The notes under the pieces are model-generated. The model was not told the origin of the DNA, searched no databases, and saw nothing but the letters and a program-made list of their open reading frames with translations. Position numbers and translations under genes: made by a program. 64,000 nt of DNA from Parus major (Eukaryota > Chordata > Aves > Passeriformes > Paridae). Positions 9,566-57,421 of this stretch are shown piece after piece (the stretch's first letter is position 1; each line of letters starts with the position of its first letter). The stretch is taken from the NCBI RefSeq assembly GCF_001522545.3, contig NC_031771.1:66848716-66912715 (forward strand), written 5' to 3'.

Positions 9566-11182
9566 ATGGCGGGAGCCGGCGACGACGGTCCGAGGGGAAC
9601 CGGGGCACCGGGGCGGGATCGGGGCAATGGGGGACCCGGGCGGGCCGGGGAACCGGGGGCTTCGGGGCACCGAGGGGTTTGGGAGAATGGGAGACCCGGG
9701 CGGGATGGGGCACCGCGGGGTTCGGGACAGTGGGGAGCCCGCGGCTCAAGGGGCTGACGTGCACACATGGGGTGACCGGGAGTCCCGGGTGGCTGAGGTG
9801 CGCTGTGGATGGGGAGCGGGTCAGTGGGGAGCCCAGGCGGGGTTTCTGGGGGACTGATGTGCGCCGGGGGCCAGGGATTGTGGGGATCCTGGGCAGGCTG
9901 GTGGGCACCGGGGGTTGGGTCAGTGGGGGCATCAGGGGGCTGATGAGCACCGCGGGGGCAGAGGCAGCTGCGGGTTCCAGGAGAGGAGCCCCGGGGTGCA
10001 CAGGACATCCCGCGTCGGGGACTGCACTTGGTGCCCCTGCGGTCTGCAGGCAGGGGTGCGGGGTGTGCCGGCAGGGGCTCCGGGATGGGATGGGGTGCAG
10101 GGGTGGGCCCAGGACAGCGCAGGGGCTGACAATCCCCCCAGGCTCCTGGGTGGAGCTGCGGTGTGGCCCAGGCTGCCCCGAGCCCGAGCTGGCGCCTTCT
10201 CCATTCTCCTGCCACGCCGACGTGGAGCGGATGCTGCTGGAGGCCCAGCTGGAGACAGAGAGCAGTGACGGGTGAGTCCTGAGGGGGAGCCAGGCTCCAG
10301 AGCCCTGCTGAGCCCTGGCTGGCGCTGGGAGCCACAGGCTGGGCTCAGTGACTGAGGGTTTCTGTTTGCAGGACCCTGCTCGTGCTGGGGTCCCCAGCCT
10401 GGGATGACGACGGAGCCAGCCATGGGAGTGATCAGCCAGGGGAGAGTGAAGTGCTGCCTGCCCACAGCCAGCCCCCACCAGGCTGCTCCCACCCCCGGCA
10501 GGTGAGGGAGCTGCCCCCACCACACCCTGCTGTGCCCCCAGGCCGTGCTCTGACCTGCCCTTTGTCTCTTTCCAGTGGGATGTGCCAGAGGAAGCCAAGT
10601 GGAGGCAGCGACGCCTGACAGCGTCCCTGGGCTGGGCCTGTACCCGCTGCCCTCGGTACCTGTCTCCAAAGTAAGTCCTATGTGCCTGACCAGCACGTCC
10701 TACTGACCCCCATCCTGCTGTCCCTGTGTCCCTGTTAACCATGAACTTTCCCCAGGGAATTTGCCTTTGTGTGCTCCCCGCAGCCAGTGCTGTGGAGCCT
10801 GCAGGGAGGTGCAGTGGGGAGGAAGAAGAGACTTTTCAGTTCGGAGCTGCTGCTGCTCTTCATCCCCTCGCTCCTGCTCAGCCACCTGCTGACCCTGGGG
10901 CTTGGGTGAGTGTCTGTGGCTCTCAGCATGGGGCTGGGGGAGTGTCTGGAGGGTCTCACCCTGGGATTGGGGGAGGAGGGAACACTCCTGCATTTGGGCT
11001 GCTCATCCTCGGGTGCTGTCGTGTACTGCTGCTCCCAGCAGCTACAGTGGTTTGCTGCCATCTCCCCTTGCTCCTGACTTGCTGGGGCCCAGCCCCCTGT
11101 ACCAGTGCCTCACAGTCACTCTCTCCAATCCAGGATCTACATTGGGAAGCGCCTGGCAGCCTCCTCGGCCAACCCTCTGTGA
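9566..11182 (+). CDS. BNIP3/NIX-family mitophagy-receptor-like protein, third paralogue (6 exons, complete)
   Basis: BNIP3 and NIX (BNIP3L) are tail-anchored outer-mitochondrial-membrane receptors that bind LC3/GABARAP and drive mitophagy. Exons: 9566-9587, 10142-10271, 10372-10501, 10576-10670, 10756-10905, 11134-11182; 576 nt, 191 aa (BNIP3 194, NIX 219), six exons as in BNIP3. Residues 9-13 are SWVEL, the family LIR (WVEL). DVERMLLEAQ at about 34-43 matches the family BH3-like block. The tail anchor (about 157-179) keeps PSLLLSHLL and GLGIYIG, including the Ser-His pair and glycines used for dimerisation in BNIP3; the BNIP3 Ala of the AxxxG pattern is Thr here. Exon 4 reads CPRYLSPKEF where BNIP3/NIX have SRPENIPPKEF. 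It is too diverged to be the ordinary bird BNIP3L. It may correspond to the third gene called bnip4 in fish (from memory). Exon 1 is the weakest call: its donor, GACG|GTCCGA, is poor. Confidence 0.85.
9590..10130 (+). repeat. Degenerate G-rich repeat in intron 1 of the BNIP3-like gene
   Basis: The intron is built of imprecise repeats of units like GGGACCCGGGCGGG and GGGGCACCGGGG and has many runs of three or more G on the plus strand. This makes G-quadruplex formation plausible. No coding signal is seen in it. Confidence 0.5.
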
Positions 11183-11451
11183 GGATCTGGGCAGGCAGCA
11201 GAATGGGAATGCGGGGAGAGCCCGGCCCCAGCGCAGCCTGACCGCTCCCAGGCCCCTTGTTCGTGGCACGAGGCGCCTTCTCCCCGTGTCTCTCCCTCAG
11301 CCCTTGCCTCAGGAGCTGATCCCACTCTCCCCCATAGACCAGAACCTGCTGATGGCAGCTCCCAGCTGCAGGCAGCCCCTGCCTTCCCCAGCCCCTGGTT
11401 ACAGGTCCAGGTCCCCCTGTAACAGACTGTAAATACAACTGAGCCCACCTG

Positions 11452-11457
11452 AATAAA
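11452..11457 (+). terminator. Poly(A) signal of the BNIP3-like gene
   Basis: AATAAA lies 270 bp after the stop at 11180-11182. The convergent DOCK gene ends within about 230 bp of it. Confidence 0.75.
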
Positions 11458-11680
11458 GAGCCCTGTGCCAGCTCAGAGGCTGAGCAGAGAGTCCCCTCCC
11501 TGTGTCCAGCCAGCCCAGCCTGGCTTGGGAAGTGACCACTGGACTCCCTGGAGTCCCTGTGCTTTGGGGTGGTGCCAGCTGGGCGTGAGCCCCTGGGTGG
11601 GCTGTGGGCAAGCAGGGGTGGCTGCTGGGGCTCACACGGGTGCTCAGCCCCACGCAGGTGCTTGGCTGATGCATTTGCCC

Positions 11681-16900: not shown

Positions 16901-19900
16901 TACCCGGAGGAAGGTGGGGAAGCCCTGCCCGTAGTACCCCACGGCAAAATAATCCGGGCTGGGCCGCAGCACCTTCAGAATCTTCTCATAGAACTTGGCT
17001 TCTCGTTGCTGCAGAGGAGAGGGGCAGGATGAGGACAGGATAGGGTCTGCCCATTCCCCCCTCATCCCTGCCGTGCTGCCCTGCCAGCAGCACCCCCAGC
17101 CCAGCCTGGGCACCCACCAGGATATCACTCAGCATTTCGTAGTCGAACACGTGGCTCTCGTACTGCTCTGCCAGCTCCTTGCAGATGTGGATGGCCTCCT
17201 CCCACATCTGGGGAAGGGAGGGGTCAGGCAGGGCCCCCCAGTGCAGGGTGAACTGGGGAAGGGGGCATCAGGGATTTCCTGCAGACACCACCCTGCCTGT
17301 GGGGCACCTGCACCCCTGCCCCCTGTGAGGATGGGGAGAGGGCTCTCCTGTGGGGACTGGTGGTCCAGTGGGCAGCAGAAGGACTTGGCTTCCCACCATC
17401 TCCAGCCATGGAGCCCCCCAGCCCACTCCAGCAAGCCTCTGTCCTGAGATATCCGAGCTGTCAGCCCTTGGCAGTACAAGGACTGCAATAGGATGGGATA
17501 GGGATGGGAATGGGATGGGAATGGGATGGGATAGGGATAGGGATGGGATGAAGGACAGTGGCTGTGGGGTGAACCATCCAGCCCAGGCTCACTGCAGAGC
17601 AGCTCCAGCCCTTCTGCAGCAGGGAGGAGTGAGAGGCTGTGCTGAGAATGGGGTCTGGGAGCTTGGAACAGGGGGGAGTGGTGGCAAGGGGGCCAGGCTT
17701 ACCCTAAGCCAGCCCAGCTCCCTCCAGCAGGGTTTCAGAGGCAGCAGGGTCTGGAGGTGGCCACACTCACCTTGCCCTGGTCGAAGTATTCAATGATCTG
17801 GTTGTACAGAGCCTCCTTCAGCTGGCGCTGAGTGTGCAGGTGGAGGCCATGTGGGTCTGGCACTGGGGCTGCATTCAGCTCCTCTGACCACTGCACGAGG
17901 GAGCAGGGACCTGTCACACCGAGCCCACACAGGGCTGCCCACTCCTCCCAGCCCCCCGAGTGCCCACCGCGAGCAGCCGGGCGTGCAGCAGCAGCGTGTA
18001 GGCTCCCTCCGTGTAGTTCTCGTAGCTGATGTGCAGGTCCTTCAGCTTGTACAGGTACCTGGGAGTGACAGAGCCGTGTGTGGGGCACAACAGAGCAGTT
18101 TGGGCAGAGAGCAGCATCATCCTGCCCCCAGGCTACTCTGCCAACCCCATCCCGCTGGGAATGCTCAGGACCCCCCACCCCAGGTGCTGCTGGTGTTCCC
18201 AGGGCTGTGCTCACCTGATGTACATGGCCTGGCGGTCGATCTCCTTGTAGAAGTTCTGTGGAAAGGCAGACGAGGCTGTTTGAGTGGCTCTAGGGGCACA
18301 TGGCACCCTCTGGGTCATGGTGCTGCCCCACACAGGGATGGGGTTGGCCACAGCTCTAGCACCATGTGCAGCCCTCTCTGCTGTGCCAGGGACACCGTGG
18401 GGACTTGGGGAGCAAGGGAACAAACCCTGGTCACCCCAGGGAGCTGGGGACATGGGGATGAGCGCTGCCAGCCTCAGGGAGCTGGAGCAGGGCACAAGTG
18501 CTCACCAGGAGGTTGACGGTGCAGCTCATGCTGTAGGTCTTGTTCTCGTCATTCATGACAGCCCGGTAGTCCAGGAGCCGCTCCAGGAGTTCACTCACCA
18601 GCCTCACAAAGTCCTCTCCAGGTTTGGCCAGCTCGGGGTGGCTCTGGCAGCAGCTCAGCAGGCTGGGGAAGAGAGGGAGCCACAGGTCCCACTGCACAGC
18701 CAGCTCTGCAGTGCTCCCACCACTGGCCCTGCTCAGCACCAAAGAGCAGGGACAAAGCCTGGGCAGAGCAGGGGCATCACCCAGGGCAGAAGTGATTCCT
18801 GGGGCAGAGATAACACCAGGGACGGTGGCATCACCCAGGNNNNNNNNNNNNNNNNNNNNNNNNNNNNNNNNNNNNNNNNNNNNNNNNNNNNNNNNNNNNN
18901 NNNNNNNNNNNNNNNNNNNNNNNNNNNNNNNNNNNNNNNNNNNNNNNNNNNNNNNNNNNNNNNNNNNNNNNNNNNNNNNNNNNNNNNNNNNNNNNNNNNN
19001 NNNNNNNNNNNNNNNNNNNNNNNNNNNNNNNNNNNNNNNNNNNNNNNNNNNNNNNNNNNNNNNNNNNNNNNNNNNNNNNNNNNNNNNNNNNNNNNNNNNN
19101 NNNNNNNNNNNNNNNNNNNNNNNNNNNNNNNNNNNNNNNNNNNNNNNNNNNNNNNNNNNNNNNNNNNNNNNNNNNNNNNNNNNNNNNNNNNNNNNNNNNN
19201 NNNNNNNNNNNNNNNNNNNNNNNNNNNNNNNNNNNNNNNNNNNNNNNNNNNNNNNNNNNNNNNNNNNNNNNNNNNNNNNNNNNNNNNNNNNNNNNNNNNN
19301 NNNNNNNNNNNNGGGCATCACCAGGGACAGAAGCATCTCCTGGGGCAGAGGAAACAGCTGGGGCAGGCTGGCTGGGGCAGCAGAGCCATGCAGAGGGCAC
19401 ACGATGGTGCTCAGGCACCAGCCTTCCTCCTCACTGGTCCCTTTCCCCCCGTGGCACCTTCTGGGCCAGGGCACAGCATGAGGAGGAGTGGGATGGCAGG
19501 GAATGGTGACAGCAAAGGGCTGTGCCCTGGGGAGAAGGGACAGGGATGTCACTGCACACTCACATGCTCTTGAAAAGCTGCATGTACTGCTCGTCCCCAC
19601 GGCCGCCCTCCACCTCACTGTCCAGCCTGCGCAGGATCTCATCCTCAAACTGCAGAGCGGGGATGAAGATGGGCTGAGCTTGGAGCAGCCCCTCCCCATC
19701 CTAAAGAGACGGTGCCCGTCCCCACTCCCAGGCCGTGCCACTCCCGTGGTGTGGGTGGTTCCCACCCCATCCTGCTCCCCCAGGAGCAGCCTTGGCTCTC
19801 ACCCGGCTGAAGCTCCCGGTGAGCCGGTGCTCGCAGAGCATCATGTCGAAGAAGATGGGGATGGTGGACTTGCGCAGCTCCAGCTCCGGCACCAGCGTCA

Positions 19901-22900
19901 TCTCCAGGATGGGACCCACCATGCCCGGGATAAACTCGATCTTGCGCTGGCCTGGGAGGACAGGGAGGGATGGGGGGCGGATCAACACCCGTGCAGGTTG
20001 CCATGCCCAAACCAGCAAAACCCTGCTCCCCACACCCACCCTGGGCACGGTGCTGATGGACATCAGCCCGCAGAGACCCAAAAATCCCCCATCGCTGCCC
20101 AGCGTGGCTCACCGAGGCTGTACCACATGTCCCGGATGGATGCTCCGATCGTGGCTCTCATGTCCCCGTACCTGCCGGGACAGAGGCCAGTCAGCACCGC
20201 TCTGCAGCCCCGCCTGCACACAGCCCGGCTGGCTCATCCCAAAACCCCTGACCTCGTGGCGAGGTGGCAGCCCGGGGCAGGGCGGGTGGGGACTCACTTG
20301 GCCAGAATACTGTTTCTTTTAGCTGGGGAGAAGTTCTCCAGCTGCAGAGAGTCCTGGGTGAGGAAAGCCACGGCCAGGTGGAAATAGTTGTTCCAAAGCT
20401 GCAGTGGAAGCACAGGGATGAGTGCCGGGCTGGGTGGGCACGGTGACCTGGGTCCTCTCCTGACCCACCTGGCCCAAAGCAGGACTGAGGCAGCTCGCAC
20501 CCACCTGCAGCTCGAAGTTGCTGTTGCTCAGGAACATCTCGGTTAAGGTCGTGGCAAACTGGTTGATGGCACGCAGGAATTCCCTGGGGCGAGTGAGCAC
20601 AGGCACTGAGTGAGGGCAGCATGGGTGTGCCCACTGCCCATCCCGGTGTGCCCACCATCATCACAAAGAGGTGGGCAGCTCCTTTGTGCCCACCTCAGAG
20701 CAGATAAACCCTGTCCATCACACCAGTCCTGCATGTCCGGAGCCGTGCTCCAGTGCCCGCCTGCCCTGAGGCATCCCGGGCGCTCACACCCTCCCCAGCA
20801 ACCCCCTGCGGGTCCCTCCGCAGCCCCTCACCGGTTCTGCACCATGTTCATCACCACCCAGTCACCGGGATACACCGTCTTCCCAATCAGGTCCTTGAAA
20901 AGGATAAAAGTCTCCATGAGGAAGTCCTGCAAGGGAGGGAGAGATGTCAGGAGCTGTGCTGGACTGCAGTGCCCTCCGGGGATGCTGTGAGGGAGGTGCT
21001 GGTGTTGCCGTGGGGCAGCACTCACCATCAGCTCCGGCCGGGAAGGGAACGCCTGGATGTAGGTGCTGTAGTGATCCTTGTCCATCTGGCTCAGGATGGC
21101 AGCCATGCAGGCCACGTAGTGACTCTGGGGAGAGGAGCTGGTCAGGCCCTGGCACCATGGAACAGGACACTGTCCTTGCTCCTCCAGCCAGTTTGTGACC
21201 CAGAGCCCCAGCTGGACCTTCCCTGATCCCTTCTTCCCCAGCTCCCCAGACCTCCTGGCCCCTTCATGTCCAGTTCCCAGACTGTGTATCCCACTCCAGG
21301 GACAGGATGGCTCCTGCACCCACCATGATGCCAGGGGGATTCAGGTGTAGTTACAGAGCTGTGCTGAAGCAACTCTGTCATTTTTGAGATAATTTAAGGC
21401 CTTCTCTGGATGAAAAGGCATTTTGAAAATGGCAAGCAGGTTCCTTCTGGAGTGCCTCCAGTGAAGGGTCCCAAACAGAGCCCTTAGCTCCACTCCAGGA
21501 GGCTCCCGGCTTTGTAGCAAGACAAGTGGAGCGTGCACGAGCGGGATGCTGCCTGGAAAGCTGTCCCAGAGATACATCCGAGGCTGGAAACGGTGGGAAA
21601 GGGCAGCTGTTTCTGGGATAATGCATGCTCAGGAGGCGTGATGGCCCTGCCGTGTCCCAGTGTCACTGACGGAGCTCTGTGGGTGGCTTCAGGTGCCAGC
21701 CCATCCCCAGAGACTGCCGTGCCGTGAGCCCTGTGAGGGCGGCACCGGGCGCTGGCCACCGCTGCCCATCCCGGGTACCGCAGGCACCTTCTGGCACTGC
21801 CGGAGCTTCCTCCTGGATTCCGGCGGAGACGGAGCCCCGTTGCAGCCCCAGGCCGGACCTTGCCAGCGACGTGCACACCAAAGCGGACTGTTCGGGGAGG
21901 GATGTGGCTGCTGCCGGTGACCGAGGGCTCCGGGAGCCCCTCGGGATGGGGAGCAGCCCACCGAGAGCTGCCGCGGGGAAGCAACGCGCTCCCTCGGCCA
22001 GCCCTGACTACGAGGGGTTTGCAGGGAATTCTCTTGTGCGAAGCAAACAGATCAAACCCCGACAGCTCGCGGTCTTTTGGGAATCCATGCGGTGTCACAG
22101 CCCCGCGGCCACCCCGCCGAGCGCTGCCCCGCGCAGCAGCACCGGCACGCCGGGGGCCCGCGGGACCGGGGCTCGCAGCCACCGCAGCGCCCGAGCAGCG
22201 CTCTCCCGGTGCCGGGACCTCCGGGGCTCGGCTCCCGGGCGCCCTCCTCCATCGCGGGGCTCCGCCCCCCGCCCCGCTCCGCCCCCGCCGGCTCCGCCTC
22301 GGTACCGGAGAGCGCGCGCCGCCCCGCCCCGCCGAGCCCCGCCCCCGCCGCTGCCGGACCCGCGCCGCCGCCGCCGCCGCCGCCGAGCGCCAGGTACCGG
22401 GCGGGATGGGGAGGAGGCTCGGCCGGGGAGAGGGGCGGCGGCCGGACCGGCTGCTGCGAGCATCGGCCCTGCGATGCCGGCCGGTACCGGGACCCCGGGC
22501 GGCCCCGCAGCCGGGGCGTGGGAACCCCGGTGCCGGGAGAGGCGACACGGTGCGGGGAGCCCCGAAACCGGGACTGCGCGGCGGTGCGGGAACCTCGGGG
22601 GCTCGGGAGCTGCGCGGGTACCCTCGGCCCGCGGGATGCGCGGGGGCCGGCGGGGCCGGGGCGACGAACCGAGCTGGGCTGGCGAGGGGGATCCTCGGTG
22701 TCCCCGGGTCCCTGGGGGTCGCGGCACCTCCCTGTCCTACTCTCCTTTGCTGCCCGCGAGCAGGAGCTGCCCGGGAACAGCTGGAGGCACGGGGACCGTG
22801 GCACCGCGCACCGAGCATCCTACGGCAGGCACCGTGCGCCGAGCACCCCGCACCGAGCCCCCTGCGCTGGGCACCCCGCACCGAGGTGGCCGCCGGTTGC

Positions 22901-25900
22901 CGTGGCGGGGGTCTCTGGGGGACACAGCCGTGCTGGAATGGTGGCACGGTGTGTAGTCTATGGAGGTGCATCTGCGGTGGGAGCCGCTGTGTTAGAGGGG
23001 CCGAGGACCCCCACGTCTTCCAGCGCTGCCGCAGCCTCGCCCTGTCCGCCCCTGCCCGTGGCCCCGCCGCTCTCCGGGGTCGCTGCGTGCTGGAGCCGCT
23101 CTGGGGAGCGGCCAGGCGGGCTCATCTCCGCTCCCCCTCGTTAGGAACGCGTCCGTCAGCCGGGGCTGTGCCGGGTGACACACGCACACGCAGATCCAGG
23201 GATGTCACTTTCGGTACCGCGCGCCGCGGTGACGCCGGCCGGGGCTGGAGGGATTCAGCCCACGTTGCTCCCGGCAGCTCCCGGCGCCGCGCTCCGAGCC
23301 CGAGGCCTTGCGTCCGCCGCCGGGGCTCTGGGATGCGGGAGCGAGCTCCAGGCGGTCCCGCGAAATGGGGATGCGCCGGTCCCTCCCGGGGTGTTCCGGT
23401 CCCTCCCGGGGTGCTCCGATCTCGGTCCTCCCCGCGGGAACGCACACAAACCCCGCTGGAGCTGCGGCTGCCGGCAGCGGTGCGGGAGAGGGGCCGAGGT
23501 CTCCGCGGAGCCGCTTTCGTGTTTGGGAGCACGAGGTGGACACGTATGAGTAACCACCGGCCCCGCTGTGCCAGCACGGGGACATACGGGGACATCGGTG
23601 TCAGCTGCTCGCTCTGAGGGGCACGGCGGGCTCAGTGCCAGCTCACGGGGATCTCCACACTCGGCCCCTCCCGGGGGTACGGGAACGAGCCCCTCGGGGA
23701 CGCGGGGACCGCCGGCTGCGCTCCCTCCCGGCGCTGCTGCCCGAGGAGCGGGGCCGGGAGCAGCGGGGGGGACCCTCGGGCACAGCCGGGCTGAGGATGG
23801 CACCTCCGGCCCTTCCCTGTGTCCCCTCTCCGCGGGGAGCGTTCGTCCTTCCGGCGCGCTCGGAGGAACGGGGTGGATTTCGTCGCAGAAGCTCCTTTGG
23901 TCTGAGGTTGTCTTCTTTACAAATGATAATTATTGTAATTATTTAATAGCATGGTGGCATCCAGAGGCCACAGATAATTAGTGTGTCTATTCCTGTCCCT
24001 GCTAACAACACTACTCCAGTCCTAACCGGTGCCGTGGGCAGAGCCTGCCTCGCGTGTTTGTGGAGATGCTCCGTAAGGTCTGGACTCTTTGGTGGTGGGG
24101 AAACTGAGGCACGAGGCGAAGGAATTTGCCAATTCCCAAATTCCCCTGGTAGCCAGCGTTGTCTAAAGCGCATGGAGATAAAGAGGGGCAGGCTGCTCGA
24201 TGGCGTTGGGAGTGCACTTAAAGGCAGGAATTTGTATTCTGGAAGGACGTTCTCAGTGCTGGGAGCTGCAGCTGCAGAGGCTGTGCCGCTGGCTGCCGGC
24301 ACCGTGGCCAGTGGGTGCAGGGCTGCCCCAGGGGGTCCCTGCTGCACCCCAGACCGAGCCCCCCGAGCCCGAACCGCTGTGTGCAGGGGCGGCTGGGGCA
24401 TTGCAGGAACTGCTGGGCGGTGAAGCCTTTCCAGCTTTTTCCAGACGTGTGCTCTGGGGACAGTTGGTGGCTTTCTGATGCCATTTCTGGCCTGTGAGGG
24501 AGCCCACAGAGAGCCCTTGTCGCTCAGGGTCCCCTGGCCCAGGCAGCTGCTCTGCAAGGTGGGGAGGTGGGCTCCAGATGGGTGCCCAATCCCTTCTCCA
24601 GAGCTGAGACATCCTCCCTGGAGAGCGCAGGGCTGCAGATGAGCTGGGTCTCCTGTGGCCAAAAGTCGCTGTGCCATGTCCCACTTCCCTTGTCCTGTCA
24701 CTGCTGCAGGATCAGCCCGTGCTGGAGATGCCAGCAGAGCCCTGGGTTTTGGTGCTGGGCACCAGCCGAGCTCTCTGGGCTGGATCTCCATCACAAGCAT
24801 CTTCCCAGGTCCGTGTAGCCACACAGGGCATCTCCAGGGCTCAGAGGAGGATGGTATTTCTTCCCATGTCCCATTCACTGAGAAGGAAGCAGCAGAGCAG
24901 GGTGTTCTTCCTCCCAGGATGATCTCTCCTGCAGCCCCAAGGGTGGCACTGAACCACAGCTCCAGGGATGCTCACCTGCTCCTGCAGGATGCGGCTGAGG
25001 GAAGCCTTGGGACACAGAACAAACTCCTCCTGAGCTGGTCCCGCTCTGCCCGTGCTCCCCCAGGCAGGTCACTCCACCTCTTCATGTCTCATTAAAGCAG
25101 TGATTCCAATGCTCCTCTGCCTGGCAGAGAGGTGGGAACGCCAGCAGGTAGCACAGGAAACAGAGACACCACTGCCATGACAGCCGTATTAGCATCCACG
25201 GGAGACAGAGGAATAATTTGGCTTCTGCAGCTTCTGAAGGCTCGTGCAGAGGCTTTGTACTCCCGTCTCCCTGACCGTGTGCAGCCCTCATCTGCAGCTC
25301 CAGCACATCCGCAGTCGGAGGGGAGCGATGGGAGCGGAGTTGGTGACCTCCATGTGCCGGGAGGATGTGACTGCTCCTTCCCCGGCCGACGGGATCCCTT
25401 CTGTGGGCACGAGCCATGGCGCGTGCGGCCAGGCCAGCCGGGAGCCTCGGTGGCCCCAGAGAGGAGCCCGTGGGGTGGCCGTGGGTGCTGGCACCGTGGG
25501 GAGGTGGGTGGTGGGGGCTCCCTGCCTCGGCCGGGTGGCAGAGCCTTCTCCTGGGCCCCGTGGCTGGAGAGTGACTAATGTTCCCGCAGAGCACTTCAGC
25601 CAGTGACCTACATAGGGATGAGCGCGGATCCCTCTGCTCCTGCTGCTCGCACTGGGACCCGTGTGCCGGTGCCACTCCCAGAACCCCCGGGCGAGGCTCG
25701 ATGCGAGGCTGGGGGCACTTTGGGGCACCCCAGGTGTGGCTCTGGTGGCAGGGACAGCACCTGTGTCCTCGGCCAGGCCAACCCAGGGATCCAGGGGGGC
25801 TGCAGTGGTGTTTGAGCAGAGCCTTGAGCGATGCCCAGAGGAAGGGGATCAGGTACTGCGAGGTCCATCAGGGACATGGGGAGCTGGCCTTGGGGACAGC

Positions 25901-43900: not shown

Positions 43901-46900
43901 CAGGGAAAGTTCTGCCACCCTCGGTGATGGCGAAAAAGCAGAAGCAGCCAGAGGAAGCAGCAAGGAGGAAGCAGCGAGGGAGAGAAGTCACCACGGTGCC
44001 ATCGGGGTGCTGGGGGGCCCTGAGGGGACACAGGGAGGTGTCCCAAGGTGGAGGACACTGCCCTCAGTCATCCTTGCAGCTACCTGGGCTCCTCACAGGA
44101 GCTGCAGGCGCTGCTTTTCCGGCTCCAGCAGCAATCCCAGACCCGGCAATCTGCAGCAACTGACTCTAATTACAACCCAGTTCCTGTCGATTACAGCCTG
44201 TACAAATTGCAGCACGTTCAGAGCACTTAGAGGATCTGAGGAGCCCGTGTTATTGCATGTTGAGATTGCTGAGATAAAGGGAAGCTATATAAAATAGCTA
44301 AATGTCCTCAGGGATGTCTCTGTTCCAGGCAAACTCATTCACGGGGCTGTTTGCAAACGCGCCGCGTAATTAATTTCTCCTGCCAGGAGCGCTCTAAGCT
44401 GGGAATCTGCTCCGTGTCCTCATGCAGGAGGGAGAGGCAGGTGCTGGGTGTGATGTTCTGGAGAGCTCTGGAGCACCCCGGAGCTGTGGATGGGACGCTG
44501 GGAAGGGATGGAAGCGGGGATGGAAGCGGCGAGGACAGACAGGGCTCGAATCACACAGTTAATACACAGCGGGGTAAAGTGAGGTGTGACAGTCCCTGGG
44601 GGCACAGGGACCCCAGCACAGCTCCTCATTTCCAGTGGGAGCACCCACAGGGACCCTGACACATCCTGGGATTGGGGTGAAGGAGGCAAAGCCCTGAGTC
44701 CCCCCAAAAAACAAAAACAAGCTGCCTGCCGAACCACAGAGCCTGAGAACAGGGTGATCCCACTGCTTTTGGTGCCCAACCCACTCAGGGAACCCTTGCC
44801 ATGTGTGTGGGGGTCCCTCCCTGCCCACCTCACTGCCCTTTGTTCCCCAGGACACTTTCGGTGCTGCGTACGTGGAACGAAAGAGGAACGCCACCGGCTT
44901 TTTCTGGTTAACACCCATGGCTGTGCTCTGATTTCCTCCTCTCCCACGCTGGCCCAAAGGAGGGGTGCTCATCCCATCACCCACACGGGGATGTGAACCC
45001 CACACCCACAGGGAACAAGTGACACCAGGCCTGTGGGGACACCGGAGGTGCCTGGGGGTACCTTGACCTTTGAGCCCACTCCTCTGCTCATCACAGGATC
45101 AGGGAAAGAACCTCACAGAGCCCCCAGCTCCACCCACCGACCCTCACTGGGCCCCAGGAAACCTTCCCAGCACAGCACCAGCCCTGCAGGGGCACTGACT
45201 GCCCAGGACATTTTGCCATCTCCAATGTGGGAGGATTTTAAGAGCTCATTGGAAACCCCCTGTCAGGGGTTGCTGGGGCAGAGGTCACTGTGGGGCAGGA
45301 CCATTGCTGGGAATTTGGGGTGGCCAGAGAGGTCTCTCACCCCGAGGTGGAAAGCACTGCCCACTCCCACAGCGGACCACCCATTGTGGCCAGCAGCACC
45401 CAGAGGATGGCATGAAGCTGGAAACGGCCAGAATCCTCCAGGAGAGGATTCACAGCCAGGGAGGAGCTGCCTGAGGAGCAGCCAACACAGCCAGGGGTGC
45501 TGGGTGCCAAGCTGGGTGCCACAGCAGCCAGCACCAGCTGGGCTGAGCTGCCACTGCGACTGCCACTGCCNNNNNNNNNNNNNNNNNNNNNNNNNNNNNN
45601 NNNNNNNNNNNNNNNNNNNNNNNNNNNNNNNNNNNNNNNNNNNNNNNNNNNNNNNNNNNNNNNNNNNNNNNNNNNNNNNNNNNNNNNNNNNNNNNNNNNN
45701 NNNNNNNNNNNNNNNNNNNNNNNNNNNNNNNNNNNNNNNNNNNNNNNNNNNNNNNNNNNNNNNNNNNNNNNNNNNNNNNNNNNNNNNNNNNNNNNNNNNN
45801 NNNNNNNNNNNNNNNNNNNNNNNNNNNNNNNNNNNNNNNNNNNNNNNNNNNNNNNNNNNNNNNNNNNNNNNNNNNNNNNNNNNNNNNNNNNNNNNNNNNN
45901 NNNNNNNNNNNNNNNNNNNNNNNNNNNNNNNNNNNNNNNNNNNNNNNNNNNNNNNNNNNNNNNNNNNNNNNNNNNNNNNNNNNNNNNNNNNNNNNNNNNN
46001 NNNNNNNNNNNNNNNNNNNNNNNNNNNNNNNNNNNNNNNNNNNNNNNNNNNNNNNNNNNNNNNNNNNNNNNNNNNNNNNNNNNNNNNNNNNNNNNNNNNN
46101 NNNNNNNNNNNNNNNNNNNNNNNNNNNNNNNNNNNNNNNNNNNNNNNNNNNNNNNNNNNNNNNNNNNNNNNNNNNNNNNNNNNNNNNNNNNNNNNNNNNN
46201 NNNNNNNNNNNNNNNNNNNNNNNNNNNNNNNNNNNNNNNNNNNNNNNNNNNNNNNNNNNNNNNNNNNNNNNNNNNNNNNNNNNNNNNNNNNNNNNNNNNN
46301 NNNNNNNNNNNNNNNNNNNNNNNNNNNNNNNNNNNNNNNNNNNNNNNNNNNNNNNNNNNNNNNNNNNNNNNNNNNNNNNNNNNNNNNNNNNNNNNNNNNN
46401 NNNNNNNNNNNNNNNNNNNNNNNNNNNNNNTGGGAACACTGGGAGCTCTGGGAACACTGGGAACCACTTCCAGCACTTACTGAGCGAAGAGGTGGCGGGA
46501 GCGGACGATGAACTTGAAGATGTACTCCAGGGCCTTGAAGGTGCGCGTGAGGGGCTCGCAGGGCTCCCCCCGGGCTGCCTGCTCCACGTACTGCGTCAGC
46601 ACCGACAGCAGCTTCCTGCAGGGTGGGACACCCGTGGCAATTCCAGCCCTGACCCCCACCATGTCCCTCCCCGTGCCACAGCCCCCAGGAACGCACTTGT
46701 AGGCGAGCGTGGCGCTGAAGTGCTGGCGGATGTAGGCCTCCAGGACCGTGTTGAAATGCTGGAACTTTCTGTCAGCCACCAGCCTGACGATGAAAACCTG
46801 AGGGTGGCAGGCAGGGGCACGGCTTGGTGTGGGCAGGGGGATGCCTGGGCAGAGCAGCAGCCGTCCTGACCCCACCGTGCCCTGGTCCCATCACCGGGAT

Positions 46901-49900: not shown

Positions 49901-52900
49901 AAAGAGCCCTGAGCAGTGGGGACCAGCTCGTGCCTCCCAGTCCTCTGGTCACAGCAGCCCCAGTCCTGGGAGGGGACACCAGGCAATGGTGCAGCACCTT
50001 CAGGGGCACCTCACATTGGAGCTGACTGCGTTTTTTCCCAAATGAGCAGCGATTTTCCCTCCCCTCCTCTCTCTCAGAGCAAACCCCAGCAGTGCCAGGG
50101 CTGGTGAAATCAGGTGAAGCGCAGCCACACCATGGGGACGTTCCCTCCCCGTCACAAACGCTTAAATCACCTTTTCCCAAACAAAACTTGTCATTCCAAA
50201 GGAGCAGCGCAGGGATTGGAGACGCTGTGTGCAGGGAGCCCCTGCCACCAAGGACAGCGAGGACAGCCAGGAGGCACCGCAAACCCTCAGGGACGTTGGG
50301 GACGTGCCACCAGCGCGGTGGCTCAGGCAGGGACAGGGACCACGGCCCCAGAAGTGCTGCTGTCCCACTTCAGGGGGTTCTGTGGCCTCCCCCATACCTT
50401 GTACAGCACCAGGTCGTGCTCTCCATCCCGCAGCGTGGTGCCATCGGGGCGCATCAGCCTCACGAAGGCCATGGAGAAAATCCGCTCGCTCCGGTCCTTG
50501 GCTGGGGGGACACACACAGGGCTGAGGTGAGGGGGAGGCAGAGGGGACCAGGCAGGGAGAGGCGATGCTGGGAGGGAGGTCTGGAGCGAGGGACACTCAC
50601 ATTCACTGGAGGAGCGGTGGCGGAAGGTGAACCTCAGGTGGGTCCTGTGGACGTCCTCGATGGGAACGGCGATCTGGGTGGGAACGTGTGCCAAGGTGAG
50701 GGCAGGGGGCACGGGCTGAGCCCCCAGCTGGGCAATGTCCCTCTGTGCCTGGGCAACCCCTCCCACTGCTGCAAACCAGCCCCACAACTTCCCAGTCAAC
50801 CAGCGAGGCTGAACTGGGGGCACTGGGATGGGGATNNNNNNNNNNNNNNNNNNNNNNNNNNNNNNNNNNNNNNNNNNNNNNNNNNNNNNNNNNNNNNNNN
50901 NNNNNNNNNNNNNNNNNNNNNNNNNNNNNNNNNNNNNNNNNNNNNNNNNNNNNNNNNNNNNNNNNNNNNNNNNNNNNNNNNNNNNNNNNNNNNNNNNNNN
51001 NNNNNNNNNNNNNNNNNNNNNNNNNNNNNNNNNNNNNNNNNNNNNNNNNNNNNNNNNNNNNNNNNNNNNNNNNNNNNNNNNNNNNNNNNNNNNNNNNNNN
51101 NNNNNNNNNNNNNNNNNNNNNNNNNNNNNNNNNNNNNNNNNNNNNNNNNNNNNNNNNNNNNNNNNNNNNNNNNNNNNNNNNNNNNNNNNNTGCCCATTCC
51201 CAGGACCACCCTCCCCAGTGCTGGAGATGCTGGGGGTCCATCCAGGGCAGCAACCCCATCATCCCCGAGATGGGACCAAGGACTGTCCCCCAAAACTGCC
51301 CTGAAGGGGACCCCCTGCAGCAGCAGGGTCCTGTGGCACCGGGGGAGTGAGGGCCACAGCCAGGAGGGGCTGCAGCCCTGTCCCACCCCAGCCCCTGTGC
51401 CCCTGGGCTCCCCAGACCTTCAGGGTCTCCATCCAGCGCTGGTGCCGCTGCTGGTAGTAGACAACAGAGCGGTAGTGGCTGGTGGGGCTGTCCCCTGCTC
51501 CCGTGTGGATCACGTTCTGCCAGGAGGAGATACCTCAGGATCAGCCCAAATCCCTCGCAGGGAGGGAGAATTCCCATCCCTGCCAGCCCCCAAATCCCCC
51601 CCTGCCCACACCTTCCTCAGCTCCATCTCCTCCTCCTCTGCCAGGCCTGGTGCCACCTCTGAGGGGACCACAGCCCTCCCAGGGCACAGCAGGGCTTGGC
51701 CCTGTGGATGGAGATGGAGAATGCATCCCTGGACCGGCCCAGATGGCCCCTCAGCAATTCCAGCCCATTCCTCAGGAGCCAGGTAAGAACTGGTGTCAGA
51801 ACACCTGGAGAGAGGCAAGGGCCAGCCTGGCGAGGTGACACGTGGGTCTGACCCCCCAGCCTGTCCTGGGGATGGATGTCTAGGAGCACTGGGGACGCCC
51901 AGAGGGCCTGGCTGTCCCCAAGGAAGGACAATTTTCTCTCTATCCCTTCACATTACATTCCCTCATCTTTATTCTATTCCCAGATCTCTATTCCAGGCAG
52001 CTCCAGGGGCTCCAGTGGCCCAAGAGGCTCCTCCAGCTGGTTTTGCTACTGGAGCTGCTGGCTCTACCTGAGGTGAGGTGGCACAGGGGACACCTGCCAT
52101 ACCTGCACCACATTTCCTGCCTCGTCACAGACACACACGGTCACCTCCACGTTCTTCTGTGTCTTCTTGTTGCCCTTGTCGAACTCTCCCTGCACCAGCG
52201 TCAGGTAAATGTCGTTCCTGACATCACCTGGGGGGACAGCCCCGTCAGCCAGGTCCTAGCACCATGCTGGCATCCCCAGGGACCCCCAGGCTTGTCCCCC
52301 CCACACTTGCCTGGCATGATGACCTCAGGGTAGCCCAGTTTGCGAGCCACTGCCGTGCTGCGGTCCACCAGGTGCGGGTGGTCCTTCCTCACCTGGCTCA
52401 GTTCTCCCCACAGCATCTTCAGGGACACCCAGAGCCCTGCAGGGACCACAGGGATTTTTCAAGGGGTGACAGCAAGAGCTGGGGGAGCCAGGGAGCCACA
52501 GCAAGTCCGTGACCCTGCAGGGACTGTCTCATGTGACAAGGAGATGGCCCGGGGAGGAGTCTCATGGCACAGAGTGGGCACAGGGTCTTTACCTTGTCCC
52601 TTGTGGTTGATGTCCTTCCCCTCCACCACCTTCCGGATCATATTGTGAAGGAAATCACCATCAGCAGCCACGCTGGGAAAGCCACATTTAGGGGAAAAAA
52701 CCTTTCTCTTTGATCCTTGCACCTCTTGTCCCCTGGCAGCCGGTGTCCCCATGCCAGCCAGGCCCTGGAGTGCTGCTCCCTGCCCGCTGCCCCCCAGCAC
52801 TGCCCCCCACCCATGGGGCTCACAGGTGGACAGGGATGAAGTGCTGCTTGTCCTCGTCGCTGTCACACGTCCCCTTGGTGATGTCGGTGATGTCCATCAC

Positions 52901-55900: not shown

Positions 55901-57421
55901 GGGTGCAGGAGCCCACGCTGGGGTGCTCCCGGGGGTCCCCCTTACCCTCGGAGGCCTGCAGGATGTGCACCGTCTCCCCGATCTGCAGCGGGAGGTGATG
56001 CTCCTTGGTGCGTGGGAAGTTCCACACGGCTGTGGGAAGAGGGGCTGGGAGCTGGGATCCCTGCCTGGAGCTCCTCAGCAACCCCCAGGACCTGTGCACC
56101 TGCACCCCACAGGCTGGATGCTCCCCACAGCCCCACAAACAGCGTGTGACCCCCGAGCACCCTGACCCCACAACCCAGGAGAGCTGCAGCCCACAAAGAG
56201 CTGGGCACAACACAAGCCCCCAGCCCCCTTTTGGCACTCAGGGGTCCATTATGGGACCCCCCTGCCTGCCACCCACCCCCTGGGTGCCGGTGGTCCTGCA
56301 GTGAGGGGAGGCGAGTGCCAGTCAGAGCTGGTGGCCCAGGGACAGGTGTGTCTGGGGACAGCGGGGCTGGTGGCAGGGGAGGGTGGCAGTGGGGACAGGA
56401 GCTCTCGGGTGGCCAGCCACTTCCTGCCCGGCTGTGCTGTGGTGTCCCTGTCACTATTTCTGGCCCCAGGGACAGCTCTGGGGCAGGCAGCACCCCCAGG
56501 CAGTCCCTGCACCCAGCTGTCCCTGTTAGGATCACACCTGTGCCCACCCTGAGTCCCAGCCAGGGCCAGCTCCTACTGCAGCACCTCCAGACCCACCTGG
56601 AGACCCCTCGTGCTGACCCTCACACCTCGGAGCACCGGGAGCCCCGAGGTCCCCCGGGACCCTGCACTCCCCACGAGGATCCTGAGCCAGCTGGGAGCAG
56701 CAGCAGCAGCCCAGCCCTGGCTCAGGTGCTGCCCAGGACCCTGCAGAAGCTCTGCCCTCGCTCCAGCACTGCAGAGTGTGCAAGGGAAGGGTGCAGGAAA
56801 CGGCCACGCAAGAAACGGGAAGAAGCACAGGGCTGCCAGAGGCAGCAGAAGCTGGGGGTGCTGCAGGGAGTGGGGGTGCCCAGAGCTGGTGCAGGGCATG
56901 GGGAGCCCAACCTTGGGGTGCTGCAAGGAATGGGGGTGCCCAGGGTTGGTTTTAACACTGAGCAAAGCCCCAGCTGGAACCTGAGGAAAATTATTGGGGT
57001 GTCTCAAGGCTCCCCCAGAGCCTCAGCAGCCAGGCTGAGCCCAAACCCACAGCCTGCAGGGAAGCCAAGCCCCCACCCCAGTGCTTCCCACCCCCACCAG
57101 CACCAGCTCTGGAGCCTCCTGGAGCGTGGGTCCTGCTGGCACCTGTCCTGCTTGCCCCCCTTCCCTGAGCCTTCTGTCACCAGCCCTGCAGCCCCCACAA
57201 ACAGCCCCCACAAACAGCCCCCACAAACGGCCCCCCTGTTTGTTCCTGCAAGGTCCTGGCAGGGTCCTGGCCCCCTCCTCGCGTCACCGGTGCCATCACC
57301 CAGCTGCCACCACCAGAGCCGGGGTTGTCACCTCACCCTGAGCCCCTCAGAAACCCCCAGAGTGCCACAGCCCCCACTCACCCACGCCGTATTTCTCCTT
57401 GGTGGGCAGCCAGGGCGCCAT
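12310..57421 (-). CDS. DOCK-A subfamily guanine-nucleotide exchange factor, probable fourth paralogue (53 exons, 1,824 aa)
   Basis: DOCK-A proteins (DOCK1, 2, 5) activate RAC with ELMO: an SH3 and helical N-terminus binds ELMO, DHR-1 binds PtdIns(3,4,5)P3, and DHR-2 is the catalytic domain. All 53 predicted exons join in phase to 5,475 nt (1,824 aa plus stop), against about 1,830-1,870 aa for the known members. The start is [13 protein letters not shown], matching the human DOCK1 start (M..WVPTK..KYGV). Residue by residue it resembles DOCK1, DOCK2 and DOCK5 in different places, and its C-terminal tail matches none that I recall. DOCK-B (DOCK3/4) can be excluded from the DHR-2 motifs. The intron between exons 28 and 29 (21125-39143) is 18 kb and carries an INSYN2-family gene on the other strand. 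All three N-gaps fall in introns and interrupt no codon phase. Domain blocks are listed separately. Whether this is truly a fourth paralogue needs a tree. Confidence 0.9.
14258..18662 (-). CDS. DOCK-A exons 36-48: DHR-2 catalytic GEF domain
   Basis: Exons (minus): 18662-18506, 18255-18215, 18058-17968, 17890-17771, 17207-17118, 17008-16904, 16434-16293, 16111-16030, 15936-15852, 15639-15553, 14862-14686, 14576-14493, 14395-14258 (residues about 1169-1635). Seen: [101 protein letters not shown] and [20 protein letters not shown]. The Ile-Ser-Pro motif whose mutation inactivates DOCK180 is kept (1505-1507, in [11 protein letters not shown]), as is the [16 protein letters not shown] segment that in DOCK2 carries the nucleotide-sensor helix. 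The sequence therefore looks catalytically competent toward RAC; this is inference from motif retention. Confidence 0.92.
17487..17552. repeat. GATGGGAATGG simple repeat in a DOCK intron
   Basis: About seven imperfect units of GGGATGGGAAT/GGGATAGGGAT between exons 39 and 40 of the DOCK gene. Confidence 0.8.
18768..19360. repeat. Minisatellite spanning assembly gap 18840-19312
   Basis: Both edges of the 473-N gap carry related units built from GCATCACC(C)AGGGACAGAAG and CCTGGGGCAGAG. The missing sequence is therefore most likely more copies of the same array. It is intronic, between DOCK exons 35 and 36, with no coding consequence. Confidence 0.7.
19564..21124 (-). CDS. DOCK-A exons 29-35: helical region leading to DHR-2
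   Basis: Exons (minus): 21124-21026, 20926-20832, 20583-20505, 20398-20298, 20171-20113, 19951-19803, 19649-19564 (residues about 947-1168). Highly family-like sequence: [85 protein letters not shown] and [15 protein letters not shown]. Introns here are 100-900 bp, in sharp contrast to the 18-kb host intron just upstream. The 18840-19312 gap is in the intron after exon 35, and exon 36 resumes in phase (AT|C, Ile). Confidence 0.9.
22080..23850. promoter_or_regulatory. CpG island in the DOCK host intron, candidate distal promoter of the nested INSYN2-like gene
   Basis: Extreme CpG density, several GC boxes (CCCCGCCCC) near 22265-22345, a CCG trinucleotide run at 22364-22386, and a plus-strand donor-like GCGCCAG|GTACCG at 22393/22394. 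This fits a non-coding first exon reading toward the INSYN2-like gene, whose coding exon begins after an acceptor at 30427/30428. Long open frames across the island are expected from the base composition and show no family resemblance. It could instead be an internal DOCK promoter. Confidence 0.4.
23951..30427. other. Host-intron stretch with no recognisable gene
   Basis: Between the CpG island and the INSYN2-like leader I find no exon with family resemblance on either strand. Base composition becomes CpG-rich again from about 28170. A near-palindromic TGCTGAGTCAGC (29135-29146), matching the MAF/NRF2 MARE core, is the only regulatory motif that stands out. Non-coding exons of the INSYN2-like gene could be here and would be invisible to me. 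Confidence 0.5.
30428..30774 (+). promoter_or_regulatory. 5' leader of the INSYN2-like gene with four upstream ORFs
   Basis: The exon starts after the acceptor CTTTGTCCCCGCAG at 30427. Before the main ATG it contains uORFs at 30439-30486 (15 aa), 30510-30581 (23 aa), 30601-30663 (20 aa) and 30660-30788 (42 aa). The last overlaps the main ATG (30775) in another frame. This layout would be expected to repress basal translation. Confidence 0.6.
30775..37170 (+). CDS. INSYN2-family inhibitory-synapse protein, third paralogue, nested antisense in the DOCK-A gene (608 aa)
   Basis: INSYN2A and INSYN2B (FAM196A/B) are components of the gephyrin-based inhibitory postsynaptic density. Coding exons: 30775-32297, 34452-34526, 36942-37170; 1,827 nt, 608 aa plus stop, in phase. 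Matches to the family: [14 protein letters not shown] (from residue 22) and [25 protein letters not shown] near 122; the coiled coil [20 protein letters not shown] (about 471-503); [20 protein letters not shown] in exon 2, almost the INSYN2A sequence; [15 protein letters not shown] and the C-terminal [11 protein letters not shown] (INSYN2A ends in WFL). The middle is long, Pro/Arg-rich and poorly conserved. INSYN2A lies antisense in DOCK1 and INSYN2B antisense in DOCK2, so the nesting itself supports the call. The start at 30775 is in good context; M22 is an alternative. Confidence 0.87.
33361..33416. repeat. CA/TA microsatellite
   Basis: A short CACACATATA stretch passes into an almost pure TA run (about 33390-33414) in intron 1 of the INSYN2-like gene. 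Confidence 0.85.
34164..34350. repeat. Purine-rich minisatellite, about 30-bp unit
   Basis: Degenerate copies of GGGATCCAGAGAGGAAAAGG-type units run up to about 100 bp before exon 2 of the INSYN2-like gene. The plus strand is almost all purine. The polypyrimidine tract of the exon (CATCTCTGTCACAG) lies outside it. Confidence 0.7.
36045..36180. repeat. 18-bp minisatellite in intron 2 of the INSYN2-like gene
   Basis: Units of CGGGGACACCGGGGGCTG repeat about four times with substitutions and then decay into CTGTGGGGACACTGAGGG-type copies. Confidence 0.75.
37374..37379 (+). terminator. Poly(A) signal of the INSYN2-like gene
   Basis: AATAAA 204 bp after the stop at 37168-37170. This gives a compact 3' UTR that ends well before DOCK exon 28. 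Confidence 0.7.
37400..39143. other. Remainder of the DOCK host intron: no gene seen
   Basis: Between the INSYN2-like poly(A) signal and DOCK exon 28 there is no convincing exon, RNA gene or repeat. Composition is mixed, with an AT-rich patch near 37980-38070. Confidence 0.5.
39144..48396 (-). CDS. DOCK-A exons 18-28: central helical-repeat region
   Basis: Exons (minus): 48396-48207, 47390-47293, 47161-47072, 46797-46697, 46615-46481, 43303-43192, 41863-41793, 40987-40881, 40723-40596, 39939-39889, 39239-39144 (residues about 554-946). Blocks shared with DOCK1/2/5 include [73 protein letters not shown] and GAALKYLP. This armadillo-like stretch is the most diverged part of the protein: the segment after [14 protein letters not shown] is shorter than in human DOCK1. 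The 45571-46430 gap is in the intron between exons 22 and 23; the phases on both sides (CA|G, Gln) show no exon is lost in it. Confidence 0.86.
40118..40328. repeat. Homopyrimidine/homopurine minisatellite, about 21-bp unit
   Basis: About ten copies of units like TTCCTCCCTGCCCTCACTT on the plus strand in the intron between DOCK exons 26 and 27. The sense (minus) strand is nearly pure purine, GGGAGGAAG-type. It yields a Lys/Arg/Glu-rich open frame that is an artefact of the repeat. Confidence 0.8.
41200..41400 (+). repeat. Possible LTR-derived fragment
   Basis: CTCTCCCTTAAAACCCCTCA followed by an AATAAA (41334-41339) and AACAGAAGCCCGTCTCGTTGG resembles the R-U5 end of bird LTRs. I found no TG...CA ends or target duplication, so the call is weak. 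Confidence 0.25.
41960..42705. mobile_element. AT-rich insertion flanked by 8-bp direct repeats ACACCCAG
   Basis: An island of about 730 bp, far more AT-rich than its surroundings, is bounded by ACACCCAG at 41960-41967 and 42698-42705. The direct repeats sit exactly at the composition borders, which suggests a target-site duplication. Inside are AATAAATACAATAAACAAG near 42481 and an A-rich right end; no terminal inverted repeats and no coding frame. It could be an LTR-type or LINE-type insertion. It lies in the intron between DOCK exons 23 and 24. Confidence 0.5.
43319..43416. repeat. 11-bp minisatellite next to DOCK exon 23
   Basis: Nine units of CACCTCGCTGT or CACCGCGCTGC. The array begins only 15 bp from the exon border (43303), so it occupies the place of the branch point and upstream intron on the DOCK (minus) strand. 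Confidence 0.85.
43765..43865 (+). repeat. CR1-type LINE fragment in DOCK intron 22
   Basis: GGACTGGTTTGGGCTGGGAG, GGGCCCTTGAAGCCCATCC and AGTCCCACCTCCTGCCATGG follow the wording of the CR1 3' region in plus orientation, 5'- and 3'-truncated. Confidence 0.65.
45571..46430. other. Assembly gap (860 N)
   Basis: Unknown sequence in DOCK intron 22. The left edge is a CTGCCACTGC-type repeat and the right edge a GGGAACACTGGGAGCTCT repeat, so low-complexity arrays probably caused the gap. No exon is missing by phase. Confidence 0.9.
50398..55411 (-). CDS. DOCK-A exons 5-17: ELMO-binding helical region and DHR-1
   Basis: Exons (minus): 55411-55315, 55231-55083, 54751-54616, 54520-54366, 54239-54158, 53331-53196, 52899-52824, 52672-52593, 52436-52311, 52227-52103, 51516-51418, 50673-50601, 50501-50398 (residues about 74-553). 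Recognisable family blocks are [58 protein letters not shown] and INHKGQGLWVSL. DHR-1 starts with [20 protein letters not shown] (about 419 onward) and runs past RFTFRHRSS and [16 protein letters not shown]. The exon 13 donor (52311) is CAG|GCAAGT, a GC-AG intron required by the reading frame. The 50836-51190 gap lies in the intron between exons 15 and 16. Confidence 0.88.
50836..51190. other. Assembly gap (355 N)
   Basis: Unknown sequence in the intron between DOCK exons 15 and 16. The exons join as [12 protein letters not shown], agreeing with human DOCK1 ETVK|VAIPIEDV, so no coding sequence is lost. Confidence 0.9.
55512..57421 (-). CDS. DOCK-A exons 1-4: N-terminus and SH3 domain
   Basis: Exons (minus): 57421-57382, 56029-55946, 55835-55795, 55567-55512. 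They encode residues 1-73 plus two bases. The SH3 fold is visible as [27 protein letters not shown] and [11 protein letters not shown], corresponding to the human DOCK1 segments LSLQIGDTVHILETYEG, WYRGYTLRKK and GIFPASYIHLK. In the family this SH3 packs against DHR-2 and is released by ELMO binding. Residue 66 onwards (TVVEQRG) leads into the helical linker. The start ATG is the only one in frame before exon 2 and follows a modest CpG-rich leader. Confidence 0.88.

Follow-up and report, generated by a model that had tools for sequence, protein, structure and literature searches.

In the human genome, AUP1 and DQX1 adjoin each other. In the great tit, Parus major, three genes lie between them, and the locus raises the question of whether a fourth copy of the vertebrate DOCK-BNIP3-INSYN2 region exists. 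We examined a window of 64,000 nucleotides, the whole stretch of DNA analyzed here. With a probability of roughly 0.87, we consider the three genes (BNIP4, DOCK2L and INSYN2L) to be the Lbx2/Tlx2-paralogon copy of a quartet formed by the 2R genome duplications, a copy that birds retain and mammals have likely lost.

Gene content of the AUP1-DQX1 interval

Gene structures were determined by aligning proteins from closely related birds to the window with a splice-aware method, and families were assigned with Pfam. An earlier note, made from the sequence alone, had placed a BNIP3-like gene, a DOCK-A gene and a nested antisense INSYN2-like gene between AUP1 and DQX1. The spliced models and Pfam confirmed this place and order: three intact genes occupy positions 9500-57421 in the order AUP1 - BNIP4 - DOCK2L (INSYN2L nested inside) - DQX1. 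The block is not a chance product because the Pfam matches reach 8e-218 for TPR_DOCK, 1e-51 for FAM196 and 6e-24 for BNIP3. The features are as follows.

732..501, minus strand: HTRA2 exon, head-to-head with AUP1, running past the window's left edge (tblastn against a provisional human HTRA2 sequence)
1330..9083, plus strand: AUP1, 12 aligned exons, left anchor gene
9500..11179, then TGA, plus strand: BNIP4, six exons (9500-9587, 10142-10271, 10372-10501, 10576-10670, 10756-10905, 11134-11179)
57421 down to 12313, then TGA, minus strand: DOCK2L (fourth DOCK-A gene), 53 coding exons, 1824 aa
30775-32297, 34452-34526, 36942-37167, then TGA, plus strand: INSYN2L (FAM196 family), three coding exons, 608 aa
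60085..63980, plus strand: DQX1-type helicase exons, right anchor gene, continuing past the window's right end

At the left edge, the tblastn match to the provisional human HTRA2 sequence (51%) extends over 797-501 and the spliced exon over 732-501; further HTRA2 exons proposed by the spliced alignment were noise. AUP1 is identical to a provisional human AUP1 sequence at 262 of 402 aligned residues. The right-flank gene shares 213 of 453 aligned residues with a provisional DHX15 sequence, the query used, and from its position and from DEVQ replacing DEAH we infer that this DEAH/Q helicase is DQX1. The flanks of the earlier note are thus retained for AUP1 and, under this inferred name, for DQX1, both on the plus strand, and HTRA2 is reduced to one credible exon. 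Rfam and tRNA scans of the window returned nothing.

The spliced DOCK2L model contains no internal stop or frameshift, and its donors are GT in 50 of 52 cases and GC in two (exons 13 and 49). Three N runs (18840-19312, 45571-46430 and 50836-51190) inside the block could point to pseudogenes or an assembly artefact. However, all of them lie within DOCK2L introns, the 53 coding exons read through without interruption, and the protein is identical to that of Passer (row P0002) at 1729 of 1822 aligned residues, with 89-90% local identity to several other passerines among the matches listed in the protein search. A pseudogene or an artefactual origin is hardly conceivable. Long open frames spanning the N runs were rejected as genes.

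Pfam domains of DOCK2L follow the DOCK-A order: SH3_2 (11-63), DOCK_N, DOCK-C2 (DHR1, 419-617), TPR_DOCK and DHR-2 lobes A-C. ISPLEN is kept at 1505 and GIVDPAVMGGF at 1546, and the C-terminal tail is proline-rich, with PPLPRK (at 1770) and PLPPPK. In the PDB, DOCK5, DOCK2 and DOCK1 scored far above DOCK10, 9, 7 and 8, with no DOCK-B chain among the matches listed; the best match was DOCK5 (2104 bits), and a DOCK2 chain with unknown stretches reached 1621. A PDB search with one plus-strand frame over part of the DOCK region, on the strand opposite to DOCK2L, gave no match. DOCK2L has the same domain series as DOCK2, with 130 of 197 residues of DHR1 and 274 of 411 of DHR2 identical to a provisional human DOCK2 sequence. 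DHR2 is slightly nearer the provisional DOCK1 sequence (286/410), as is SH3 (30 vs 22 of 53), and the N-terminal and TPR regions are nearer DOCK2; these domain identities alone do not decide between DOCK1 and DOCK2 kinship.

INSYN2L is nested antisense in DOCK2L intron 28 (39143-21125), which separates the codons for DRENPLR from those for SHYVACM. It combines the FAM196 domain (PF15265, 1e-51) with a three-exon coding structure, which we take to be shared by the human FAM196/INSYN2 genes, and 597 of its 608 residues (98%) are identical to the Poecile atricapillus protein (row P0241). BNIP4 starts at 9500 or at an internal ATG at 9566, the start given in the earlier note. It is identical to the Vidua protein (row P0122) at 203 of 213 residues and carries the BNIP3 domain (PF06553, 6e-24), the LIR WVEL and the tail-anchor helix SHLLTLGLGIYIG. 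The middle BNIP4 exons vary much among birds. Isoforms without the membrane anchor are annotated.

Origin of the block

Two DOCK trees were built. The larger contained 34 rows (29 of the 120 listed matches, the window and four human rows). The second contained 24 of these 34, with the window row comprising residues 1-1620 of an earlier model, which differs from the final 53-exon model in its tail and a few middle exons. The trees were rooted on DOCK4, so they do not test DOCK-A against DOCK-B, and the DOCK5 row covers the N-terminal half only. The 24-row tree gave the topology ((DOCK1,DOCK5) 98/99, (DOCK2 100/100, DOCK2L 100/100) 99/98). The DOCK2L clade included shark, ray, chimaera, caecilian, salamander, turtle, alligator and bird; within it chondrichthyans were sister to tetrapods, and the branching matched the species tree. 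Grouping DOCK2L with DOCK1/5 instead was 13 log units worse (p-AU 0.026), so that this arrangement is disfavored by a modest test.

The window gene was accordingly rejected as an orthologue or a recent duplicate of DOCK1, DOCK2 or DOCK5, since it falls in its own clade (100/100), sister to DOCK2 (99/98). Recent duplication of, or orthology with, BNIP3L, DOCK2/5 and INSYN2A/B was an outcome that the earlier note had named as counting against its proposal, as was an absence of the standard paralogues from the same genome. In two other vertebrates a standard paralogue was present beside a gene of the new type: Callorhinchus has both DOCK1 (P0116) and DOCK2L (P0077), and DOCK2 (P0095) occurs together with INSYN2L (P0298) in the turtle Carettochelys, in each species on contigs of different size.

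The sister position of DOCK2L, and the automatic names DOCK2-like or INSYN2B-like that many members carry, would fit a scenario in which the DOCK2-INSYN2B region was copied within bony vertebrates or reptiles and the copy inserted between AUP1 and DQX1. However, the clade includes shark, ray and chimaera, and forcing bony-vertebrate DOCK2L together with DOCK2 was 73 log units worse (p-AU 3.8e-6, LG+G4). This test rejects any duplication later than the chondrichthyan split, and the event that gave rise to DOCK2L would be older than that split. The block also includes a BNIP3-type gene, and we know of no such gene beside DOCK2. So late an origin is therefore very improbable.

In the human genome, we take 10q26 to carry DOCK1, BNIP3 and INSYN2A, and 8p21 to carry DOCK5 and BNIP3L. 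A 2008 study of the Lbx/Tlx paralogons (PMC2446394) describes paralogons 1 and 4, and 2 and 3, as sister pairs, with AUP1 and DQX1 in the Lbx2/Tlx2 paralogon and DOCK2 in that of Lbx3/Tlx3. It names DOCK2 four times, in passages always at Tlx3 loci; BNIP, DOCK1, DOCK5 and FAM196 are not named in its main text. It places chicken Aup1-Htra2-Loxl3 on a poorly characterized chromosome 4 contig with sequence gaps; the gene appears there as HTRA1 in human and as Htra2 in chicken. A sister of DOCK2 between AUP1 and DQX1 is as the model of Lbx2 and Lbx3 as sister paralogons predicts.

This agreement bears on the alternative that the block stems from a segmental duplication older than the jawed-vertebrate split, and not from whole-genome duplication, and was then moved beside AUP1. 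The tree dates the event only to before the shark split, with no lampreys or invertebrates among its rows, and to this extent the alternative fits. However, the pairing (DOCK1,DOCK5),(DOCK2,DOCK2L) equals the independent Lbx1/4 and Lbx2/3 pairing, and both DOCK2 and AUP1-DQX1 are in the predicted paralogons (PMC2446394). We regard the segmental origin as improbable and prefer the genome-duplication quartet.

In the INSYN2 trees, INSYN2L sequences of sharks through birds clustered together, separate from human INSYN2A and INSYN2B, with supports of 92/97 (39 rows, including 36 of the 120 listed matches) and 97/96 (31 rows, after 8 without the exact motif were dropped); the outsiders were two provisional, long-branched human sequences. 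In the BNIP tree (18 rows, 15 of them from 120 listed matches, with provisional human rows and long branches), BNIP3 and NIX paired at 100/99 apart from the fish and archosaur rows, and the inner branching was poorly resolved. With one provisional human sequence per paralogue, the BNIP and INSYN2 trees show separateness and no sister pairing. The quartet reading draws most strongly on DOCK, the only family for which both a duplication predating sharks and the paralogon pairing were found. The fourth-copy proposal of the earlier note thus largely holds, with a positive DOCK tree and no firm quartet place for the other two families.

Occurrence across vertebrates and linkage

The protein searches covered the best 120 of 2079 (DOCK), 202 (BNIP) and 495 (INSYN2) matches. 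In the DOCK set, 92 sequences (91 matches and the window) were nearest DOCK2L, 27 DOCK2 and two DOCK1; some of these assignments may be wrong, as a few models are fragmentary or chimeric. DOCK2L was present among the matches listed in birds, turtles, alligator, a caecilian, salamanders, sharks, rays and a chimaera. Within the best 120 of 2079, none came from mammals, squamates, frogs or ray-finned fish; DOCK2 or DOCK1 of these groups rank lower in the same list. This suggests that DOCK2L is absent from mammals, squamates, frogs and ray-finned fish.

INSYN2L was more widespread among the matches listed, occurring in birds, turtles, caecilians, salamanders, lungfish, squamates, gar, paddlefish, teleosts, sharks, rays and a chimaera. 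Since squamates and ray-finned fish show INSYN2L and no DOCK2L among the matches listed, INSYN2L may have persisted there after the host gene was lost, perhaps twice. Named BNIP4 rows among the matches listed came from birds, one alligator and teleosts. Loss of the block in mammals is likely, judged by their absence among the best 120 of 2079, 202 and 495 matches.

Gene order was read in the window only; elsewhere, contigs of equal size were read by eye as the same contig, so that linkage is presumed. By this measure DOCK2L and INSYN2L are together in 14 species among the matches listed, and BNIP4 is with one or the other in 15.

DOCK2L with INSYN2L, birds: Passer domesticus, Passerculus, Leptosomus, Falco peregrinus, Phaenicophaeus, Struthio, Dromaius, Pterocles, Ara, Accipiter gentilis
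DOCK2L with INSYN2L, others: Ambystoma, Heterodontus, Heptranchias, Rhinoraja
BNIP4 with DOCK2L or INSYN2L: Leptosomus, Falco peregrinus, Phaenicophaeus, Struthio, Pterocles, Alligator mississippiensis, Coturnix, Serinus, Tyto, Apus, Porphyrio, Zonotrichia, Anguilla rostrata (eel), and the pipefish Corythoichthys and Stigmatopora

The contig sizes of DOCK2L and INSYN2L differ in two species, Scyliorhinus torazame and Cuculus canorus, each with one scaffold below 1 Mb. Those of BNIP4 and its partner differ in three: Podargus and Patagioenas, with scaffolds below 0.2 Mb, and Caloenas, with 14 Mb on one side.

Predicted functions and comparison with known systems

BNIP4 motifs were scanned in 109 archosaur rows, many of them partial, and in 10 teleost rows. 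The LIR reads WVEL or WVQL in 45 of the 47 archosaur rows complete there, and in one row close to a grouse sequence it is broken (RTEP). The WIPI2 motif ERMLLEAQLE or a close variant is present in 49 of 50 complete rows, the exception reading ERSGRDRTGT, and the membrane helix is kept in 98 of 99; all three elements are also kept in teleost rows. The site for PPTC7/FBXL4 turnover has a different history. W144 and SRPE are absent from the window BNIP4, which reads LGWACTRCPR, the commonest string among the archosaur rows, vs WVSDWSSRPE. WSSRPE occurs in none of the 109 archosaur rows, and SRPE occurs in one (P0214), away from the PPTC7 site. The alligator protein retains a partial SRPM at this site; therefore the loss of SRPE was stepwise.

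In NIX, the mutations W144D and RPE/AAA abolish PPTC7 binding and make the protein more abundant, and RPE/AAA raises mitophagy (PMC11316107). WIPI2 binding by NIX involves E72/L75/D77/E81 and the LIR residues W36/L39 (PMC12339401). The window motif matches the former with E, L, E replacing D, and E. By analogy, BNIP4 is predicted to act as a tail-anchored receptor for mitophagy, binding LC3/GABARAP and WIPI2 via WVEL and ERMLLEAQLE and dimerizing through the kept SHLLTLGLGIYIG helix. It is predicted to escape the PPTC7-FBXL4 brake because the site altered in the NIX mutants is lost: without W144 and SRPE, PPTC7 would not hand BNIP4 to SCF-FBXL4, and its amount would depend mainly on transcription.

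It is also possible, if unlikely, that bird BNIP4 is decaying or repurposed and that the SRPE loss reflects relaxed selection, not escape from turnover. The divergent middle exons, the long alligator branch, the grouse-like row without its LIR and the anchorless isoforms are consistent with this. However, the window gene is open and spliced, and the disappearance of the PPTC7 site goes together with strong conservation of the LIR, the WIPI2 motif and the membrane helix. Under the preferred reading, a mitophagy receptor freed from this brake, bird BNIP4 is a natural experiment altered at the same site as the PPTC7-escaping NIX mutants (W144D, RPE/AAA).

The bird gene likely belongs to the bnip4/BNIP3L2 lineage. 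We take fish BNIP3L2 to be, in all likelihood, zebrafish bnip4; the fish rows here are named BNIP3 or zgc:73226. Passages of PMC5526904 describe NIX (chromosome 8) and BNIP3 (chromosome 10) as genome-duplication copies, and BNIP3L2 as confined to ray-finned fishes and the coelacanth. A third BNIP3 paralogue is thus already known from fish, and its presence in birds and alligator, if orthologous, contradicts and would correct this printed confinement.

The database names of the three genes are automatic (DOCK2-like, BNIP3-like and proline-rich protein), and bird DOCK2 annotation may confuse two genes, as several plain 'DOCK2' entries group with DOCK2L. The earlier note had thought the copy possibly overlooked; its proteins are already in public databases. 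No account of a fourth DOCK-A gene or of the quartet was found among the papers listed by searches of a mostly open-access literature that excluded bioRxiv, and the main text of a study of elusive genes (PMC10208646) mentions none of these names. If the quartet reading is true, it completes a 2R quartet in which the fourth DOCK and INSYN2 members are without a name, and the block provides an independent check on the proposed Lbx1/4 and Lbx2/3 paralogon pairing. A wider proposal, which we hold tentatively and at somewhat less than even odds, is that the fourth DOCK-BNIP3-INSYN2 locus survives complete in jawed vertebrates other than mammals, that in birds its BNIP4 is a PPTC7/FBXL4-blind mitophagy receptor and DOCK2L a second conventional Crk-docking DOCK, and that mammals lost these Rac-GEF and mitophagy wirings in one AUP1-DQX1 deletion.

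Human INSYN2A is, we assume, antisense to DOCK1. Like INSYN2L, INSYN2A and INSYN2B have the N-terminal QVRFK and QTSP motifs and a C-terminal block. In that block INSYN2L reads NCGTCRDCACIIYSVEHDF in most rows from sharks to birds, where the provisional human INSYN2A and INSYN2B sequences have DTCRN(S/C)ACIIYSVE(L/Y)DF. By eye, IQTSPSLQK and RKCFW of INSYN2L look nearer INSYN2B than INSYN2A. INSYN2A has a role at inhibitory synapses (PMC11840842), and by analogy INSYN2L would be an inhibitory-synapse scaffold. Fish BNIP3L2 resembles bird BNIP4 in its tail type, SHxLTLGxGIYIGKRLA, where human BNIP3 and NIX read LLAIG and VLALG. It differs from archosaur BNIP4 in that WSSRPE is kept in 10 of 10 teleost rows.

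DOCK2 is a DOCK-A family member and a hematopoietic Rac exchange factor. With SH3, DHR1, DHR2, ISPLEN and GIVDPAVMGGF intact, DOCK2L would act as an ELMO-dependent Rac exchange factor. According to a 2009 review (PMC2689226), DOCK1 is alone among DOCK-A and DOCK-B members in having conventional Crk sites, and DOCK2 is without the C-terminal region for Crk. In a motif scan of the best 120 of 2079 matches, strict PxLPxK was present in 26 of 47 scorable DOCK2L tails and in two of two DOCK1 tails; another scan showed it in four of four scorable chondrichthyan DOCK2L rows. The tails of 45 more DOCK2L rows and two DOCK2 rows were unscorable. Among the 21 DOCK2L tails without it, seven retain PPPPPK, and several others are probably faulty automatic models. 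DOCK2 differs, as all 25 scored tails (0/25) are without the PxLPxK present in DOCK2L, and the loose PxxPxK is present in five of them. Binding of Crk and ELMO and activation of Rac by DOCK2L are predictions; unlike DOCK2, DOCK2L would also be recruited by Crk/CrkL directly, via the PxLPxK of its tail. Most simply read, an ancestral Crk route was kept in DOCK2L and dropped in DOCK2. As a sister of DOCK2 with Crk-type docking sites kept, DOCK2L would offer a natural experiment on what DOCK2 gave up.

Alternative reading of the BNIP4 anchor exon

In three bird records examined, the BNIP4 isoforms P0166, P0194 and P0195 (database proteins from similarity searches), the membrane-anchor exon is entered in another frame and the C-terminal end is CCGACREVQW...CSATC. 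The exon is as follows:

10756-10905, plus strand: BNIP4 membrane-anchor exon, alternative acceptor near 10782

The isoform frame is likewise open in the window at 10782-10889. Together with the bird isoform records, this open frame predicts, at the sequence level, a soluble form of BNIP4 that would retain the LIR and the WIPI2 motif and lack the anchor.

Gene spacing, base composition and repeats

BNIP4 and DOCK2L are convergent, with stop codons approximately 1.1 kb apart. At the other end, across 57421-60085, DOCK2L is oriented divergently to its neighbour, the DQX1-type gene, and approximately 2.7 kb separates the DOCK2L start from the first helicase exon seen. A promoter common to both genes is possible. 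The stretch 21484-23617 has a GC content of about 73% and long open frames on both strands; it is perhaps a CpG island or the INSYN2L promoter. The following repeats were also observed:

36040-36114: small array
40116-40332: C/T-rich minisatellite inside a DOCK2L intron, units of 21, 60 and 81 bases
43318-43415: small array

DOCK2L and INSYN2L in other vertebrates

The public entries P0008, P0022, P0033 and P0077 are labelled plain DOCK2, yet are closest to DOCK2L; the DOCK2 records of birds, alligator and chimaera therefore mix two genes. No squamate or ray-finned fish DOCK2L was found among the best 120 of 2079 DOCK matches, while the best 120 of 495 INSYN2 matches include INSYN2L proteins from both groups (P0314, P0319, P0328, P0331, P0334 and others). 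Thus, INSYN2L, as a nested gene, may have outlasted the loss of its host DOCK2L in squamates and ray-finned fish.
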